64,000 bases of DNA from Ornithinimicrobium pekingense DSM 21552. GTDB lineage: Bacteria > Actinomycetota > Actinomycetes > Actinomycetales > Dermatophilaceae. Position numbers and translations under genes: made by a program. The notes beneath the pieces were generated by a model, which was not told the DNA's origin, did no database searches, and saw only the letters and a list, made by a program, of their open reading frames with translations. The stretch covers positions 124,001 through 188,000 of the forward strand of contig NZ_ATWJ01000014.1 in assembly GCF_000421185.1 (NCBI RefSeq), in the 5' to 3' direction. This document shows positions 29,499 to 36,685 of the stretch, piece by piece (within the stretch, counting starts at the first letter, position 1; every line of letters starts with the position of its first letter).

Positions 29499-29603
29499 TC
29501 ATCTCAGGTGCCAGCGGACGCCGAGCGCGGTGACGGTCGCGGTCAGGGCCCGGTCGTGGACCCAGGTGTGGTGCCGCGGGCAGAGCAGGGCGTAGTTGGA
29601 CAG
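29499..29603 (-). pseudogene. 3' fragment of DUF222/HNH endonuclease gene (split by element)
   Basis: Read on the minus strand from the att core this encodes LSNYALLCPRHHTWVHDRAL and 14 more residues to a stop at 29499-29501. CPRHHTWVHDR is the second half of an HNH nuclease motif and is typical of the C terminus of DUF222/HNH proteins. It is in phase with the 5' part that ends at 33631, so it is the severed tail of that gene. Confidence 0.88.
29589..29603 (+). other. attL core of the integrated element
   Basis: GGCGTAGTTGGACAG is shared with 33619-33633 apart from one base (G here, A there). Host gene sequence lies to the left and element sequence to the right. The integrase gene begins 20 nt further on, the usual position of a serine-integrase attachment site. 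Confidence 0.8.
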
Positions 29604-29610
29604 ACGTCGC

Positions 29611-29616
29611 TAATGT
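29611..29616 (+). promoter_or_regulatory. Leaderless -10 element of the integrase gene
   Basis: TAATGT ends six bases before the ATG at 29623 with no ribosome site. The -35 position would fall in or beside the att core, so integration or excision would change the upstream promoter context. Confidence 0.45.
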
Positions 29617-29622
29617 GACCTC

Positions 29623-31038
29623 ATGGCGACCAGGGCGAGCGGCACCCCGAGCAAGGCAGCGGTCTACGCACGGATCTCCAAGGACACCGAGGGCGTGGGA
29701 GCCGGTGTGCAGCGGCAGGTGGCCGACTGCCAGAACCTGGCCGAGTCCCTCGGCTGGACCGTGGCAGACACCTACATCGACAACGACCTGTCGGCCTACA
29801 CCGGCAAGCCTCGCCCCGAGTACGCGCGCATGCTCGCGGACCTGGCCGACGGCCTGGTGGACGGCGTGCTCTGCTACCACATGGACCGGCTGACCCGACG
29901 CCCGAAGGAGTTGGAGGAGTTCGTCGAGGCCCTCGACGCGGCAGCGGTCAAGCACGTTCGGTTCGTCGCCGGGCACACCGACATCGGCACCGGCGACGGT
30001 CTGATGATGGCGCGGGTGATGGGCGCGTTCGCCTCCCACGAGTCAGCGTCAAAGACGCGCCGGATGGAGCGGAAGTGGGAGCAGGACGCCCTGGAGGGAA
30101 AGCCCCGCCGCAGCGGCACCCGCCCGTTCGGGTACGCCGCCGACGCGGTGACCCTGGTCCCCGAGGAGGCAGCGATCATCCGGCAACTGGTGGACCGCTT
30201 CCTGGCCGGGGAGTCCACTCGTTCACTGTGCGTCTGGCTGAAGGAGGAAGGGGTGGCGACCACCAGCGGAGGGAACTGGCAGACCTCGACCCTCAAGCAG
30301 ATCCTGACTTCGGGGCGGATCGCCGGATACCGCGAGCACCGAGGCGTCAAGGTCGCCAAGGCCGTGTGGGAGCCGATCATCACCGAGGAGCAGCACCGCC
30401 AGGTCCTCGCGCACGTCGAGGCCCGCAAGCGCAGCGGCAGGAGAGCACCCCAGCGGTACCTGCTGTCAGGGATGCTTCGCTGCGGCCGGTGCGGCAACCG
30501 GCTCTACTCCTCCGCTCGCCGGGACACCCGCCGCTACGTCTGCCAGGCCGGGCCGGACCACTTCGGCTGCGGACGGTTGACCGTAGTTGCCGACCCGGTC
30601 GAGCGGCTCATCGCCGACGCCGTGCTGCACCGCCTGGACTCCCCGCAGATGGCCGATGCCCTGGCCGGGAAGGTCAGCAGCGACGAGCGCACCGCCGTCC
30701 TGTCCCAGGCCCTGGAGGAGGACGAGGCGCAGATGCAGGAACTGGCGCAGGCGTACGCCGCCAAGCAGATCCGCATGAGCGACTGGCTCACGGCCAAGAA
30801 GCCCATCGAGGAGCGCATCGAGAACACCCGCCGGCAGATGGACAGGATGAACGGGCACACCGCCCTGGCGAGGGTGGCCGGCCAGGGTCAGGAGTTGCGC
30901 CAGCAGTGGGCCGGCCTCAACCTCGAGCGGCAGCACGCGATCGTCAAGACCGTCCTCGACCATGCCGTGATCCGCCCGATGACCCCAGGAGTGCGCAAGT
31001 TCGACCCGAACCGTGTGGCCCCCGTGTGGCTCGTGTAG
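29623..31038 (+). CDS. Large serine recombinase (site-specific integrase)
   Basis: A 471-residue serine integrase. The resolvase catalytic domain (about 12-155) has the nucleophile Ser19 in VYARIS and CYHMDRLTRRPKELEEF around residue 84. A recombinase domain follows (about 170-270, with RSGTRPFGYA). A zinc ribbon (CGRCGNRL near 286, YVCQAGPDHFGCGRL near 305) and a coiled-coil (about 365-420) complete the architecture. It catalyses attP x attB recombination; excision normally needs a directionality factor, which I do not see here. The att core lies 20 nt upstream, confirming it as this element's own integrase. Confidence 0.95.
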   Translation: MATRASGTPSKAAVYARISKDTEGVGAGVQRQVADCQNLAESLGWTVADTYIDNDLSAYTGKPRPEYARMLADLADGLVDGVLCYHMDRLTRRPKELEEFVEALDAAAVKHVRFVAGHTDIGTGDGLMMARVMGAFASHESASKTRRMERKWEQDALEGKPRRSGTRPFGYAADAVTLVPEEAAIIRQLVDRFLAGESTRSLCVWLKEEGVATTSGGNWQTSTLKQILTSGRIAGYREHRGVKVAKAVWEPIITEEQHRQVLAHVEARKRSGRRAPQRYLLSGMLRCGRCGNRLYSSARRDTRRYVCQAGPDHFGCGRLTVVADPVERLIADAVLHRLDSPQMADALAGKVSSDERTAVLSQALEEDEAQMQELAQAYAAKQIRMSDWLTAKKPIEERIENTRRQMDRMNGHTALARVAGQGQELRQQWAGLNLERQHAIVKTVLDHAVIRPMTPGVRKFDPNRVAPVWLV

Positions 31039-31071
31039 GTCAGTCCCGCCCCGGTGCGTGCTCCCGCTGCG

Positions 31072-31089
31072 CGGGTGCGCGCGCACCCG
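31072..31089. terminator. 18-bp perfect palindrome after the integrase gene
   Basis: CGGGTGCGCGCGCACCCG reads identically on both strands, 33 nt after the integrase stop and ahead of the convergent rep stop. It may serve as a bidirectional terminator; Z-DNA-like alternation of GC is also evident. The 31039-31218 gap contains nothing else I recognise. Confidence 0.5.
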
Positions 31090-31218
31090 GTGCGCGGACC
31101 TGGCCCAGCAGCGCGGACACCCGGGATACCACCAGCGGGTCCGTGACGTGCTCGGGCACACCCTGAGCCTCACACGAGGCTGCTACCCACGCCGCCAGAT
31201 CCTCCGGCGACAGCCCAC

Positions 31219-31971
31219 TCAGGCCCATGCCGCCCACACCGCCGGAGGAGCCTCCCAGTCCTCGACGTCCTCCGAGAGCCAGACGTCCGTGGGATGAGCC
31301 CTCATGACGTCGCAGGCCTTCGACAGAACCTCCGCGCGGCTGTCCCCGACCAGGCGCACCTTCTCCGGCTGAAAGCCCTGCGCGACCTCGTACCGGTGCA
31401 GCCCCTTTCCCTGAACCCCGTCGAAGGACTTTGACACGTACTTCGACATGTACCCGGCAGCCCGCCGGGCCTCCTCCCGCGTGGTCGAGCCGACCGGCAT
31501 GTCCGAGACGCGTTTGATGTGAACCCAGCCGCGCCCCCACGCCTCCTCGATCTTGCCGCGTGGTATGAACCGGCCGACGCCGAAGTGCACGTGGAGGTGC
31601 ACGCCGTCCTTGTGCAGCTCGGGCACCCACACGTACGGGAACGGATCACCGCCGAGACCGGCCCGAAGGTCCCGGAAGAACGATGCGACGTGCTCGCGCA
31701 GCAGCACAGGGTCCGAGCATCGGGGCGGACCGTAGGTCAGCGTCCCGAGCCGGGTGATGGAGTTGGCCGCGCAGTACTGCCGCAGCAGCCGCCGCGCGCG
31801 CTTGACCGCCTCCTGGCCGGAGCGCACCGGGTCGGAGGCGTGCCCCTGTGGGACGTACGGACGATCACGCCGCGAGGCCGAACGAAAGGACCCACCCGCC
31901 TCCCCGGCGGCAGGGACGAGGGTTAGACCCCAAGCAGGGTCAGGAGCAACAACGGGAACACGTACAGACAC
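31219..31971 (-). CDS. HUH-type replication initiator (rolling-circle Rep)
   Basis: About 250 residues. Motif I is RLGTLTYGP, motif II the metal-binding HUH HLHVHFGVG (near residue 125), and motif III GYMSKYVSK (near 172) with two candidate nucleophilic tyrosines four residues apart. This order is that of rolling-circle Rep/relaxase-like endonucleases of small actinobacterial and phage replicons. It should nick an origin and prime replication or transfer of the excised circle. The start is uncertain: the frame stays open to 32259, but GTG 31971 is the first that leaves a family-like N terminus. It faces the integrase gene tail to tail. Confidence 0.82.
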   Translation of the reverse strand: MSVRVPVVAPDPAWGLTLVPAAGEAGGSFRSASRRDRPYVPQGHASDPVRSGQEAVKRARRLLRQYCAANSITRLGTLTYGPPRCSDPVLLREHVASFFRDLRAGLGGDPFPYVWVPELHKDGVHLHVHFGVGRFIPRGKIEEAWGRGWVHIKRVSDMPVGSTTREEARRAAGYMSKYVSKSFDGVQGKGLHRYEVAQGFQPEKVRLVGDSRAEVLSKACDVMRAHPTDVWLSEDVEDWEAPPAVWAAWA

Positions 31972-32056
31972 GAGACCACCCCGGAAGGACGAGCCGACAA
32001 GGACGTCAGCCCCACCGTGAGCACTTCCCCGACAGGCGCGCCGGAGACACAAGAAA

Positions 32057-32086
32057 GCCGCAGGTGGAGCCCAAGCCACCTGCGGC
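32057..32086. other. Hairpin upstream of rep; possible replication origin or terminator
   Basis: Eleven-bp perfect arms (GCCGCAGGTGG at 32057-32067, complement at 32076-32086) flank an 8-nt loop, about 90 nt upstream of the chosen rep start. HUH Reps nick hairpin loops near their own gene, so this is a candidate double-strand origin. It could instead terminate the membrane-protein transcript that runs toward rep. The rest of 31972-32308 has no gene I can support. Confidence 0.45.
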
Positions 32087-32308
32087 GCGTCCCCGCTGCT
32101 GCGTTCGATATGTCTCGTGTGTACCGGCACGTCCCTGCCGTGGATCGACGGCTCGCCCTCTTGCCCCGGGAGCAGGGCACTCAATGTGTGTGCAGTTGAT
32201 CTGTGCATGCGGTGGGGTGGCCCAACGCAGCCGGTCTCGCGCACCAGCCATGCTGCCACAGCACCATCACTCAGCGGAACCCCCCACGAGTTACGTTGCT
32301 ACTTCAAG

Positions 32309-33394
32309 TCAAGAGGCGCTGCCTTCGGCATCGCCCTCTGTCCCGCTGTCCGGCGCCTTGGCGCTATCCCGCTCGGCTTCTTCCCGCATCCTTTCCATAA
32401 GGAAGCACAGTTCGGGAACCCACTCAGCAACCACATCTTCAATCGCATGAAAATACGGCTCTCTGACGTCAATTCCGCCGCTGATCGCCTCCTCGACTAT
32501 GGCCTGCGATGCCTCGAATTCACCGATTGCACTCAGCCCACCGGCCATGGCACCCACCCACGTAACCCGCGAGGGATCTTCCACGTCCTTCACCAATTCC
32601 TTGGCCACCTCGATGGCTCCTGCAACGATCGGCACTTCCACCTGGTTTAAGTACGCAAGCGTAGCGACCATTTCGCGCGCGCGTAGCCTGGAACTGACCG
32701 CCTGCCGAAGGACGAAGAACAATAGCAAGAGCACGAACGGAACATTCCACCACGAAGTGCCCGCGCAGACAACCCCGCCCAGGATCCCTAGCGGCAGTAT
32801 CAAACCAAACCGCAACTCAGCTTCGGACCTTAGCCGGTCAATCTCTTGGTATTGCTCTGCGGAATCCTCCCATAGTTGCATGGCACTCACATCTAAGCGC
32901 TCAAGCACCAACTCCAGCGGGAAGTCGAGGGAAGCGCCTGACGGCGCGCCAGCGCGAGCGTATTGCCCAGCAATATAGTTCAGGATCAGGCCCCGTATAT
33001 CTGGGGACTCCCCGCGAAGCCTCATCTGCAAATTGTGGGCAGGAGTCGAGATCCTAAACCAACGCCTGTTAAGCGTACTGGCGATTTTGGCGCGACTGCC
33101 TTGAATCACCCGTTCAAGAAGGCCTGATACCGACCTAGCGACGCGCGCGCCGATGATGCCCGTGATGTCGACAGCGATTGTTCCTATTAGGTACGCTGCG
33201 ATACTCAGCGCGGCAACGACGTATCCCGCACCCAGCGATTCAAACAATGCCTGAGAGCGCATCACGATGGGATGCCCCGCCCACTGCGCCAGCCGCGCCT
33301 GATCGATAAGTAGATACACCGCATACAGCCACGCCCACCCGATGAGCAATGGGTTTCGGACGTGCCTGACGCCCGGCATAAGAGCACTCAACAT
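32309..33394 (-). CDS. Unknown membrane protein of the mobile element
   Basis: About 361 residues. Hydrophobic segments lie near 15-35, 55-80 and a long pair near 195-230 (LILPLGILGGVV, VPFVLLLLFFVLRQAV), with a cytosolic middle and an acidic C-terminal tail rich in Glu/Asp/Ser. No catalytic motif or known domain is apparent. GC and codon use are lower than in the rest of the window (AAT, ATA, TTA-type codons occur), indicating recent acquisition. ATG 33394 is chosen, TTG 33409 is possible. As the only gene not needed for mobility it may be cargo, for example exclusion or defence. Confidence 0.6.
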   Translation of the reverse strand: MLSALMPGVRHVRNPLLIGWAWLYAVYLLIDQARLAQWAGHPIVMRSQALFESLGAGYVVAALSIAAYLIGTIAVDITGIIGARVARSVSGLLERVIQGSRAKIASTLNRRWFRISTPAHNLQMRLRGESPDIRGLILNYIAGQYARAGAPSGASLDFPLELVLERLDVSAMQLWEDSAEQYQEIDRLRSEAELRFGLILPLGILGGVVCAGTSWWNVPFVLLLLFFVLRQAVSSRLRAREMVATLAYLNQVEVPIVAGAIEVAKELVKDVEDPSRVTWVGAMAGGLSAIGEFEASQAIVEEAISGGIDVREPYFHAIEDVVAEWVPELCFLMERMREEAERDSAKAPDSGTEGDAEGSAS

Positions 33395-33618
33395 GGCAAG
33401 ACCGTACAACTAACCGACAGGCACTCATGCCGTTTGACGACTTGCACCCGCTTCCGCTGCCCAGCATCACGAACGCTAGGGCCTCGATTCAGTGGCTGTC
33501 AGCCCGTCCTGAGGGGGGTCGCTTCGCGAGTAGTCGGCTTGCCGATGCTGTGCCACCGGCGGCACATAGATTGGCAGCGCCCCGACGCTCCACTGTCCCG
33601 AGGGTCGTACGAACGGCT

Positions 33619-33633
33619 GGCGTAGTTAGACAG
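33619..33633 (+). other. attR core of the integrated element
   Basis: GGCGTAGTTAGACAG matches attL at 14 of 15 positions. To its right the DUF222/HNH host gene resumes in frame. The 224 nt between it and the membrane-protein gene hold a short hairpin (GTGCC..GGCAC) and no supported gene. Confidence 0.8.
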
Positions 33634-34866
33634 GTCAGAACGACCGCCGAGCGCCCAGGGCACGACGTGGTGGGCGTCGCACCACGTGGCCGGCACGGTG
33701 CACCCCGGGATGGTGCAGCCACCGTCCCGGGCGGCCAGGCGCAGCCGCTGCCCGGGCGTGACAAGGCGCACCCGCCGGCCCTGGTCCAGGACCTCGCTCG
33801 GCCCGCCCAGCACCACCGGGACGATGTCGGCCTCGCACGCCAGCCGGCGGACCGACTCCGCACTGACCGACGCCCCTCCCAGGGTCGCCCCGCAGCCCGG
33901 CTCACGGCCCCCGGACTCGCTCAGCTGCCGCTTCAACGTCTCGAAGTCGATGCTGAGCACGAGCATCGCCTTGGGCGTGGTGGGCTGGACCTTCGTGCCG
34001 GCCACACCCCGGCGCAGCACGGTCATCAACGCGTCATACCGGCGGTTGCCCGGCGTGCGCAGATCCGGCTCACCCGTGGCCGCCCGCTCCTGGCGCGAGG
34101 CCGGCGCCGCCAACGGCGAGGCCAGGATCGCCCTGACCGCCTCGTAGTCCGCGTCGTCACCGAAGGTCATGATGATCCGCTTGACCGACCCGTCGGCCAG
34201 GCTCGACTCGTGCACGTCCCGCAGCTGATGGGCGGCCTTCCTGCGCTCCTCGTGGTCCTTCTCGGGCAGGCAGCGCCGCAGCAGCGCGGCGACGATCGCC
34301 TCGACGTCGCCCTCGTCGAACAACGGGTTGCACCCCGCGTCGGCCAGCAGCCGCACCGCCTCGGCATATTCCAGGGGCGTGACCGCCCGGCGGATCCGCA
34401 CCAGCGCCCGGTGCATCCGCGCCGCCCGGGCCAACGGCATACCCCCCGACAGCACCCCCGCCACCAGCGGCGCGTGCACCCCCTCACGGGCAGCCCCGGC
34501 CACCCGCGCCAGGTCACGCACCACCCGCGCGTCCAGGTCGGGGCAGCGAGCGGCCAGCCAGTCGACCAGGCTGAACCCGTCGATGGTGTGCAGACCCCGC
34601 TCGGCCGCCTCGCACGCCAGCCGCAACCGCGCCCGCTCCAGCGTCGCCGACGCCCGGGAGACCTGGTCCAGGCCCGAGGCCACCTCGGCGTCCTGCAGCA
34701 GCACCGCCTCACCCGCCGCCACCTCGGCGAAGATCGCCTCCCGCTGCGTCTCCCGCAGCGCGACCGCGACCCGCTCCCCCACCGGCCTCGGCGCAGGCAG
34801 CGTGCCGGTCCCGACGAGCCGGCCAAAGCCGGTCCGGAGCACCTCCCCGCCCCACTGCTGCGACAT
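33631..34866 (-). pseudogene. DUF222/HNH endonuclease gene, 5' part, interrupted by element
   Basis: The first 412 codons of an actinobacterial DUF222/HNH protein: a helical DUF222 region (about 1-340) and the start of the HNH motif (CTIPGCTVPATWCDAHHVVPWALGG near 380-405). The natural tail, starting SNYALLCPRHHTWVH, is at 29499-29600. Rejoining at the core gives an intact 445-residue protein. In place, the frame runs 44 codons into the element to a stop at 33499, losing the final HNH histidines, so nuclease activity is probably abolished. Such DUF222/HNH genes are multicopy in many actinobacteria. Confidence 0.88.
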
Positions 34867-34878: not shown

Positions 34879-34950
34879 GAGGCCACCACCGACAGACCCG
34901 CTGACCTGCGACGACGCGGGTACGGGGGCGGGCGCCGGCCGCCCGACCGG

Positions 34951-35745
34951 TCACGCCGTGGTGATCTCCCGGCGGCGCAGCCGCAGGTAGCCCACGAGCA
35001 GGGGCAGCCCGACCCAGAGCAGAGCCGTTGCCCCCAGCTGAGCCCACTGCTCACCCGTGAGCGGCGCCTGGGTGTAGAGCGGCGCCTGCGAGGTCGCCAG
35101 GTCGAACCACGCGGCGTGGTCACGCACCGCCGCGACGAACTGCACGAGGAGGTTCATCGCCACCGGCAGCGCGAAGTAGAGGACGATCGCGGCGGTGCTG
35201 TTCATGAGCAGCAGCCCGAAGGCCACACCCTGCAGGACCGCCAGCAGCTGCAGCAGCACGAGATGCCCGAGGTCGCGGGCACCCAGGTCCCAGGCCTGGT
35301 CACCGGTGCCGGCGAGCGCGGTCGCCGCTCCGGCGACCACCAGCAGGAGCGCCAGGCCGGCCAGCCCGAGCACGACGGCGGCCACGGTCTTGGCCAGCAC
35401 GACCAGCCCGCGCCTGGGCTCGAGGGTGAAGGTCACCAGCCCGGCCCGGGCGCTCCACTCGCTGGTCACCAGCAGGATGCCCAGGACGGGCAGCAGGAAC
35501 GTCTGCGGCAGCAGCGCCATGCCGGCGAAGCCGTAGACGGTCCGCTCCTCCGCGGGTCCGAAGACGCCGAAGATCACCAGCGCCCCCAGGCTCGCCACGC
35601 CGATCGCGGCCAGCAGCCACAGACCGGAGCGGGTGTCGACCGCCTTGCGCAGCTCCACCAGGACAAGCCGCCGCACGGGTATGGCGCGCACCGGCGCCTC
35701 CTGCCCCCGCACCGTGGCCGGGCGCTGCGGGGAGGCGGTGGTCAT
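34951..35745 (-). CDS. ABC transporter permease
   Basis: A 264-residue permease of the ABC-2 type with about six membrane helices (WLLAAIGVASLGALVIFGVF, LLPQTFLLPVLGILLV, VLLQLLAVLQGVAFGLLLMN and others) and an N-terminal cytosolic segment. TSEWSARAGLVTFTLEPRR is a phrase common in actinobacterial exporters of this kind. Its ATG overlaps the stop of the ATPase gene (TGATG), so the two form one exporter. Substrate unknown. Confidence 0.85.
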   Translation of the reverse strand: MTTASPQRPATVRGQEAPVRAIPVRRLVLVELRKAVDTRSGLWLLAAIGVASLGALVIFGVFGPAEERTVYGFAGMALLPQTFLLPVLGILLVTSEWSARAGLVTFTLEPRRGLVVLAKTVAAVVLGLAGLALLLVVAGAATALAGTGDQAWDLGARDLGHLVLLQLLAVLQGVAFGLLLMNSTAAIVLYFALPVAMNLLVQFVAAVRDHAAWFDLATSQAPLYTQAPLTGEQWAQLGATALLWVGLPLLVGYLRLRRREITTA

Positions 35746-36641
35746 CAGGAGACTCCTTCCCGGGCGTCGGCGGCGGTGAGCTCGAGGAAGCGCTCCTCCA
35801 GGCCGCCGGACTCCGACGGGCGCAGCTCGCTCAGGGGTATGCGGTGCGCCGCCGCGACCCGTCCGACCTCGACCGGCTGCGCCTCCACCACCATCCCGCC
35901 CCGGGCCGACGGGACCGGCTCCAGGCCCTGCGCCCGCAGCGCCTGCTCGAGGGCGCGGTCGTCGTCGGAGCGCACGACCGTGCCGGCCGTGGCGAGCAGC
36001 TCCTCCTTGCTCCCGGTGGCCACGATGCGGCCGCGCCCGATGACCACGAGGTCGTCGGCGATGACCTCCACCTCGCGCAGCAGGTGCGAGGAGAGCAGCG
36101 CGGCGCCGCCGGCGCTCGTGAAGTCGCTCAGCAGCGTGCGCATCCACCGGATCCCGGCGGGGTCGAGCCCGTTGGCCGGCTCGTCCAGGAGCAGGATGCG
36201 GGGCGAGCCGAGCAGAGCGTTGGCGATGCCCAGGCGCTGCCGCATACCCAGGGAGTAGGCCCCCACCCGGCGCCGGGCCTCCGCGGGCGTGAGCCCCACC
36301 AGCTCCAGCATCTCCTCGACCCGCCGCCGGTCCAGCCCCATCGCCAGGGCGCTGAGCGTGAGCGACTCCCGCCCGGTGCGCCCGGGGTGCTGGGCGGACG
36401 CGTCCAGCAGGACCCCGACCGTGCGTCCCGGGTTGGGGATGTCTTCGTAGCGCCTGCCCAGCAGCAGCGCGCTGCCCGACGTCGGCCGGGTGAGGGCGCA
36501 CAGCATCCGCAGGGTCGTCGACTTGCCCGCACCGTTGGGTCCGAGGAAGCCGGTGACCCGCCCGGGCTCCACGGAGAAGGTCACGTCGTCGACCGCGCGG
36601 TGCTCCCCGTACACCTTGGTCAGTCCGTCGACCACGATCAT
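35745..36641 (-). CDS. ABC transporter ATP-binding protein
   Basis: A 298-residue ATPase. Walker A GPNGAGKST near residue 33, Q-loop region, signature YSLGMRQRLG near 130, Walker B ILLLDEP near 150 and the H-loop SSHLL are intact. The C-terminal extension (about 215-298) is usual for drug or bacteriocin-type exporters (CcmA/NatA class). With the coupled permease it forms an efflux or self-protection transporter. GGTGGAGGC precedes the ATG. Confidence 0.92.
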   Translation of the reverse strand: MIVVDGLTKVYGEHRAVDDVTFSVEPGRVTGFLGPNGAGKSTTLRMLCALTRPTSGSALLLGRRYEDIPNPGRTVGVLLDASAQHPGRTGRESLTLSALAMGLDRRRVEEMLELVGLTPAEARRRVGAYSLGMRQRLGIANALLGSPRILLLDEPANGLDPAGIRWMRTLLSDFTSAGGAALLSSHLLREVEVIADDLVVIGRGRIVATGSKEELLATAGTVVRSDDDRALEQALRAQGLEPVPSARGGMVVEAQPVEVGRVAAAHRIPLSELRPSESGGLEERFLELTAADAREGVS

Positions 36642-36685
36642 GCCTCCACCGTCCCACCGACCGGCGGCGGGCGGTATGCCGCGGG

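Follow-up and report, generated by a model that had tools for sequence, protein, structure and literature searches.

The phiRv1 element of Mycobacterium tuberculosis, which carries a serine recombinase, resides in a REP13E12 repeat (PMC9317374), belonging to a repeat class listed as REP13E12/HNH endonuclease/DUF222 (PMC10589994), and phiRv1-type mycobacterial elements have been described as similar to phage-inducible chromosomal islands (PICI-like; PMC10654092). In Frankia alni, the actinomycete integrative and conjugative element (AICE) Faln2929, whose serine recombinase is convergent with tra and with a rep of the RepSA type, disrupts the putative endonuclease gene Fraal2928; the same source defines AICEs by a serine or tyrosine integrase, a RepSA, RepAM or Prim-pol module, and an FtsK/SpoIIIE transfer protein (PMC3218068). 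Diverse large serine recombinases (LSRs) can also share a single conserved coding site, as exemplified by 33 LSRs in a prolyl isomerase gene (PMC10083194). Here we describe an element of 4,030 bp, bounded by two 9-bp cores, that lies inside a DUF222/HNH gene of Ornithinimicrobium pekingense DSM 21552 (contig NZ_ATWJ01000014.1, positions 124,001 to 188,000; this whole stretch of 64,000 nucleotides, from a genome of 3.85 Mb, is referred to as the window). With a probability of about 85%, we interpret it as an integrative, probably self-replicating, AICE-related element devoid of an FtsK-type gene, integrated by its LSR at an attB site on the HNH motif and carrying exchangeable cargo.

A sequence-only reading of the window had proposed that a mobile element splits this gene; the two-junction anatomy, with an LSR gene inside, bears this out, and the coordinates given for the gene start (34866), the CTG at the break (33631-33633) and the displaced tail (29499-29603) hold. 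The two 15-mers at the junctions (Table 1) are identical at 14 of 15 bases, differing by G at 29598 and A at 33628, and within one mismatch no further copy occurs on either strand of the window (about 0.004 expected from base composition). Because the junctions of a sister element, L078, share unbroken identity only over GGCGTAGTT, nine bases common to both junctions in both elements, crossover within GGCGTAGTT appears more likely than at the CTG codon. The earlier proposal that both halves meet in a shared core thus stands as regards rejoining in one frame, and needs amending as regards the imperfect repeat and the point of exchange. The codon following the core specifies Ser in either version (TCC or TCT), and joining the flanks at either end of the repeat makes no difference to the result, one frame of 445 codons, matching the 445-residue protein originally predicted. 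No tRNA that could represent a tRNA-type target occurs within the 64-kb window.

Read on the minus strand, the host frame starts at 34866 and encodes DUF222/HNH sequence through LSNYA, followed by foreign sequence. The HNH sequence does break at the CTG, as had been stated; the open reading frame (ORF) itself, as it now stands (33499-34866), continues for 39 codons into the element and specifies a 455-aa chimera. The missing tail, also encoded on the minus strand, begins at 29603 and closes with a stop codon at 29499-29501. The break falls within the HNH motif: the Pfam HNH profile scores 26.7 bits against the intact protein of a congener (G030, locus L092) versus 13.9 bits against the interrupted protein (cut-off 21.4), DUF222 being retained in the window half, and HNH is above the cut-off in both intact relatives scanned. 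Among 34 DUF222 loci (L001-L034, part of a longer list of matches), two (L004 and L005) are the window itself, and the other 32 were checked for read-through by tblastn with the intact G030 protein, a regular expression for the HNH motif having matched only 9 of the 34 and therefore been replaced. The frame is uninterrupted across the junction point in 30 of the 32; L003 and L018 give no tblastn match there, and L018 ends at a contig end. Of the 30 uninterrupted rows, 24 have Asn at the core codon, two V, two R, one L and one K. We take this Asn, from knowledge of the motif rather than from a solved structure, to be the Asn of HNH; given the variation, the codon specifies the middle residue of the motif in only part of this family of putative nucleases. 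Mapping onto a solved HNH structure was attempted and left unused, the best match (E 0.069) being an unrelated enzyme and HNH entries following from E 0.09.

The tail belongs to the same gene, as had been supposed: its DNA matches sequence adjoining DUF222 genes in many congeners, including G030 (87% over 150 bp, E 2.7e-46), which also holds the closest intact gene (77% identity over all 445 residues, with neighbours partly common and rearranged). Neither a relative assigning the tail to a different gene nor a lack of relatives with the rejoined frame was encountered. The insertion most likely inactivates this copy, and precise excision, which is expected of serine recombinases and predicted for this element, would re-create the uninterrupted reading frame. 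Such exact reversal is common to serine recombinases in general and not peculiar to this locus. Three further DUF222 matches occur in the same genome. The congener G011 has, on one contig (C1), eight copies of the DUF222/HNH gene with 65-67% identity to the one in the window, pointing to what would be a proliferating gene family, and in G009 (C112, 70067-73145) a DUF222 gene with 47% identity adjoins a homolog of window region 34943-36656 in the opposite orientation, as if DUF222 genes move or invert.

The core of the element comprises three genes (Table 1). The LSR frame is open, with the Resolvase, Recombinase and zinc-ribbon domains of Pfam all above their cut-offs and phrog_95 at 341 bits; from the observed anatomy, the enzyme would recombine attP with attB. 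The replication initiator (Rep) frame is likewise open, its conserved part starting near 31971, and His223/His225 (the HUH motif) and Tyr270/Tyr274 are invariant in five aligned sequences. These features, together with phrog_3419, predict the activity of an HUH endonuclease with a catalytic Tyr. REP_ORF2-G2P is above the cut-off, and the RepSA profile reaches 13.8 bits against a cut-off of 34. Between the two genes, overlapping the rep stop codon, lies an ORF of 62 aa, for which a structure model built on three sequences shows, with modest confidence, two helices (mean pLDDT 72, pTM 0.37). Known directionality factors can be equally small (73 aa in phiRv1 and 64 aa in TP901-1; PMC4111918), which, together with its constant place, makes this ORF the best candidate for such a factor. 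The four proteins of the element, which occupy most of its 4,030 bp, contain no FtsK-type domain.

Related elements were collected by an LSR search of 186 genomes of the family (33 matching at E 1e-40) and a Rep search of 396 genomes drawn from the order (12 matching at E 1e-15); genome searches used one genome per species, so within-species alleles lie outside their view. The resulting set of 16 comprises elements with an LSR of at least 41% identity plus a Frankiales contig (L036), namely the window element, L078, L079, L080, L081, L082, L084, L085, L086, L130-L135 and L036; Rep matches without an adjoining LSR (G394 and G123) and two plasmid regions with FtsK genes (L151 and L152, LSR 51-52%) were kept apart. 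LSR identities in the 15 other elements range from 41% to 82%, Rep is present in 14 of them (all except L082), and tblastn detects the small ORF in 12 (not in L079, L082 or L132). Half of the set, from three families of one order, occupies the homologous DUF222/HNH codon (the window element, L078, L079, L080, L082, L130, L131 and L133), which provides seven further cases of the similar insertions that the sequence-only reading had suggested looking for. Both junctions could be read in seven of the eight, with lengths of about 3.95-5.94 kb; L082 was read on the left only, and its LSR match is truncated. Three elements, whose LSRs form a sister clade, interrupt an ATPase gene at its Walker A motif (GK|TTLLN), so that here too a catalytic motif is hit: L081 and L086, read on both sides, and L085, read on the left only. 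One interrupted part in L081 is a T2SSE-family protein, and the targets of L085 and L086 were judged by sequence. L132 and L134 were considered as HNH-site elements and rejected, the DUF222/HNH match lying beside the element and continuing past the junction point rather than at the junction.

In a midpoint-rooted LSR tree of 21 rows, a single switch between the HNH and Walker A site labels suffices. The HNH-site rows form two branches, one supported at 92/96 (not starred) and one at 96/94; the Walker A clade falls inside the latter. The five rows placed at neither site are interspersed, and therefore further site changes, or unread sites, remain. Within the genus, LSRs above 40% identity were found only in the genome itself and in G028, those of G006 and G013 being at 34-35%. 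At L088 (1857-1943 and 9922-11190), another DUF222/HNH gene is split by a different stretch of about 8 kb whose LSR is distant (35% identity); the break is close to the first histidine of HNH and not at the Asn codon, perhaps representing a second LSR lineage that strikes this gene family.

Beyond rep, a conserved 21-bp box marks the border between core and cargo, and is a candidate replication origin or nick site. It follows rep in 15 of the 16 elements, matching at 16-21 of 21 bases, versus a best match of 13-15 in 30 letter shuffles per stretch; L079 and L086, with no box near rep, were placed by a scan of the whole element with a one-base variant and no shuffles, and L082 reaches at best 15 of 21. 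A hairpin at the box was no better than in shuffles in the window or L078. The L036 sequence stops just past the box. In 10 of the 14 remaining elements (the window element, L078, L080, L081, L086 and L130-L134), a minus-strand ORF ends within about 45 bp of the box; in four of these ten the stop codon directly abuts it, within its conserved extension, and therefore the box itself may in part impose the exact fit. In L079 a plus-strand ORF begins about 30 bp past the box. The minus-strand ORFs that come within 25 bp of it in L084 and L085 are doubtful as genes, and L135 has no ORF ending or starting nearby.

The gene in this slot of the window element, a candidate cargo or defence gene, has a GC content of about 0.58 versus 0.69-0.76 around it, and few genomes of the class have a homolog (6 of 394, its own included); in one of these, the homolog (27% identity) has a RepSA gene at a distance of about 5 kb. 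The Pfam and PADLOC scans covered ten cargo proteins, drawn from nine elements, and the L134 protein was compared with NCBIfam only; the set took in just one of the L131 ORFs, none from L132 or L135, and neither of the doubtful ORFs in L084 and L085. Five of the ten match PADLOC at E 0.01, some weakly (the first protein of L079 and those of L081, L086, L131 and L133), so that, going by family matches, some cargo genes look like anti-phage defence genes. L134 and L079, elements of different families, both carry proteins of the LPO_1073/Vpar_1526 family.

Table 1 Features of the element and its host gene (window positions), and cargo of related elements.
Feature	Position	Strand	Basis or description
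Host gene 3' part	29499..29597	-	NYALLCPRHHTWVH...RWHLR, stop; rejoined frame, tail DNA matches, intact homologs
Left attachment junction core	29589..29597	.	GGCGTAGTT
Right attachment junction core	33619..33627	.	GGCGTAGTT
Wider 15-bp repeat pair	29589-29603 / 33619-33633		One mismatch
LSR, 471 aa	29623..31038	+	Pfam Resolvase, Recombinase, Zn_ribbon_recom; phrog_95 integrase; phmmer matches among serine integrases of solved structure
Small ORF, 62 aa, overlapping rep stop	31040..31228	-	tblastn at same place in 12 of 15 related elements
Rolling-circle replication initiator (Rep), putative start	31219..32259	-	PF23343, 55.8 bits; phrog_3419; alignment
Conserved box, 21 bp	32288..32308	+	GAGTTACGTTGCTACTTCAAG
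Window cargo gene, product resembling a membrane protein, 361-366 aa depending on the start codon	32309..33409	-	No family; ORF, GC, family scans
Host gene 5' part, through core codons Asn-Tyr-Ala	33619..34866	-	Pfam DUF222, 41.9 bits; intact homologs
L078 cargo			DUF4062
L079 cargo			Weak AbiJ/PDC-S32 match and LPO_1073-family protein
L080 cargo			Membrane-protein-like product
L081 cargo			SIR2 resembling ThsA
L086 cargo			nSTAND1
L130 cargo			PIN_8
L131 cargo			CAP12/Pycsar-type TIR
L133 cargo			HEAT protein

Taken together, these data suggest a cycle in which the LSR would join a circular attP to the attB on the HNH motif, splitting a gene that serves as a landing pad within a multi-copy family. 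The LSR, with a directionality factor for which the 62-aa ORF is the best candidate, would circularise the element again, and excised or incoming DNA would be copied by the rolling-circle Rep, perhaps from the box as nick site. Relatives retain the core, half of those examined also the target, and the gene past the box is exchanged. Since no tra gene is present, the element may pass between cells by riding along with an AICE, a plasmid or a phage.

Several observations weigh against this interpretation. Neither a second copy in the genome itself nor an excised circle was seen, and flank searches of 31 genomes of the genus, one per species, gave no syntenic empty locus among the matches listed. 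The 62-aa ORF matches no family in Pfam, PHROGs or NCBIfam, making its role guesswork, and searches of plasmid and phage collections at E 1e-5 gave no relative of Rep. The two junctions of L079, L131 and L133 share scattered bases only and so do not fix the crossover dinucleotide. Five of the 16 elements (L036, L084, L132, L134 and L135) are at neither common site, or unplaced, and five of the ten scanned cargo proteins lack a PADLOC match (those of the window element, L078, L080 and L130, and the second protein of L079).

Of the competing explanations, the one that survives best, unlikely as we consider it, is that the element is a remnant that has lost excision, leaving the nuclease gene a permanent pseudogene. 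Some of its kin do look damaged (the LSR match of L080 shifts frame near residue 396, and that of L082 breaks off near residue 253), and the failure to see a circle or an empty allele fits such a fate; in the window, however, the LSR and Rep frames are open, the conserved Rep residues are kept and neither core is damaged. That the element derives from a phage, as a satellite or prophage remnant, and is not plasmid-like is considerably less probable. The LSR has matches in 1,176 phage records at E 1e-5, all below 60% identity, one IMG/VR contig combines a 47% Rep relative with a distant LSR match, and the PICI-like description of phiRv1-type elements (PMC10654092) points the same way; however, no capsid or packaging family was detected in five window proteins scanned against PHROGs, Rep is without a match in the phage collection, and the closest gene order found is AICE-like. 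Among viral contigs, no relative of the LSR or of the cargo was confirmed. Least credible is a programmed switch that would bring back the HNH enzyme at a set moment, like developmental excisions known elsewhere. In its favour, rejoining keeps frame and codon, the LSR has an open frame and the nearest NCBIfam model is the excision recombinase XisF (109 bits, far under its cut-off of 375); against it, an LSR above 40% identity is confined to two genomes of the genus, the target comes from a many-copy gene family, cargo differs among elements, the chimeric tails are short and differing, and nothing links excision to any signal.

By itself, the split gene is an ordinary outcome of integration by a serine recombinase, and the integrative element favoured here is more interesting as a cargo vehicle than for the gene it splits. 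What matters more is the family, with its very small core, recurrent target codon and fixed cargo slot: it supplies candidate LSRs with readable attB/attP pairs, and reading the cargo slot offers a route to new defence-type genes. As a speculative extension, to which we give little weight, this rolling-circle family of about 4-6 kb might be a cassette carrier of single anti-phage genes exchanged at the 21-bp box. Entry into DUF222 genes would then split the catalytic motif of an HNH nuclease and so disable it; as this enzyme possibly serves in defence itself, the host would give up one defence gene in return for another and regain it when the element leaves, and the membrane protein in the window would be an undescribed defence gene.

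Like phiRv1, the element carries a serine recombinase and lies in sequence of the DUF222/HNH class, and the directionality factor of phiRv1 is small, as is the candidate here; phiRv1 is described as prophage- or PICI-like, whereas the window element has a Rep and one cargo gene and no phage structural match. DUF222/HNH multi-copy genes as landing pads find another case beside phiRv1 and perhaps beside the Frankia element. With the latter it shares a serine recombinase and the disruption of a gene, which in Frankia is for a putative endonuclease; Faln2929 has a tra gene, in contrast to the window element. An integrase is present and an FtsK/SpoIIIE transfer protein absent, so the element falls short of the AICE definition in its transfer gene and is best called AICE-related. 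A Mycobacterium avium plasmid region presents an LSR with 52% identity in the order LSR, small ORF (similarity E 2e-6 when only that locus was searched), replication initiator (by annotation) and FtsK gene, and a Gordonia rubripertincta plasmid region an LSR at 51% in two pieces, small-ORF similarity and an FtsK/SpoIIIE gene. Unlike the window element, both carry FtsK genes, and in the stretches compared (L151 and L152) no significant DUF222 match was found and the box is absent (best 13 of 21). The survey of LSRs with shared sites names other target genes; its main text does not contain the word 'endonuclease', and DUF passages in it concern DUF4368 (PMC10083194). Precedents exist for a serine recombinase element in REP13E12, for an AICE in an endonuclease gene and for conserved coding sites shared among LSRs, whereas four features look new: a small core that stays constant, an HNH codon used repeatedly across three families, the box, and cargo that is exchangeable and in some cases resembles defence genes.

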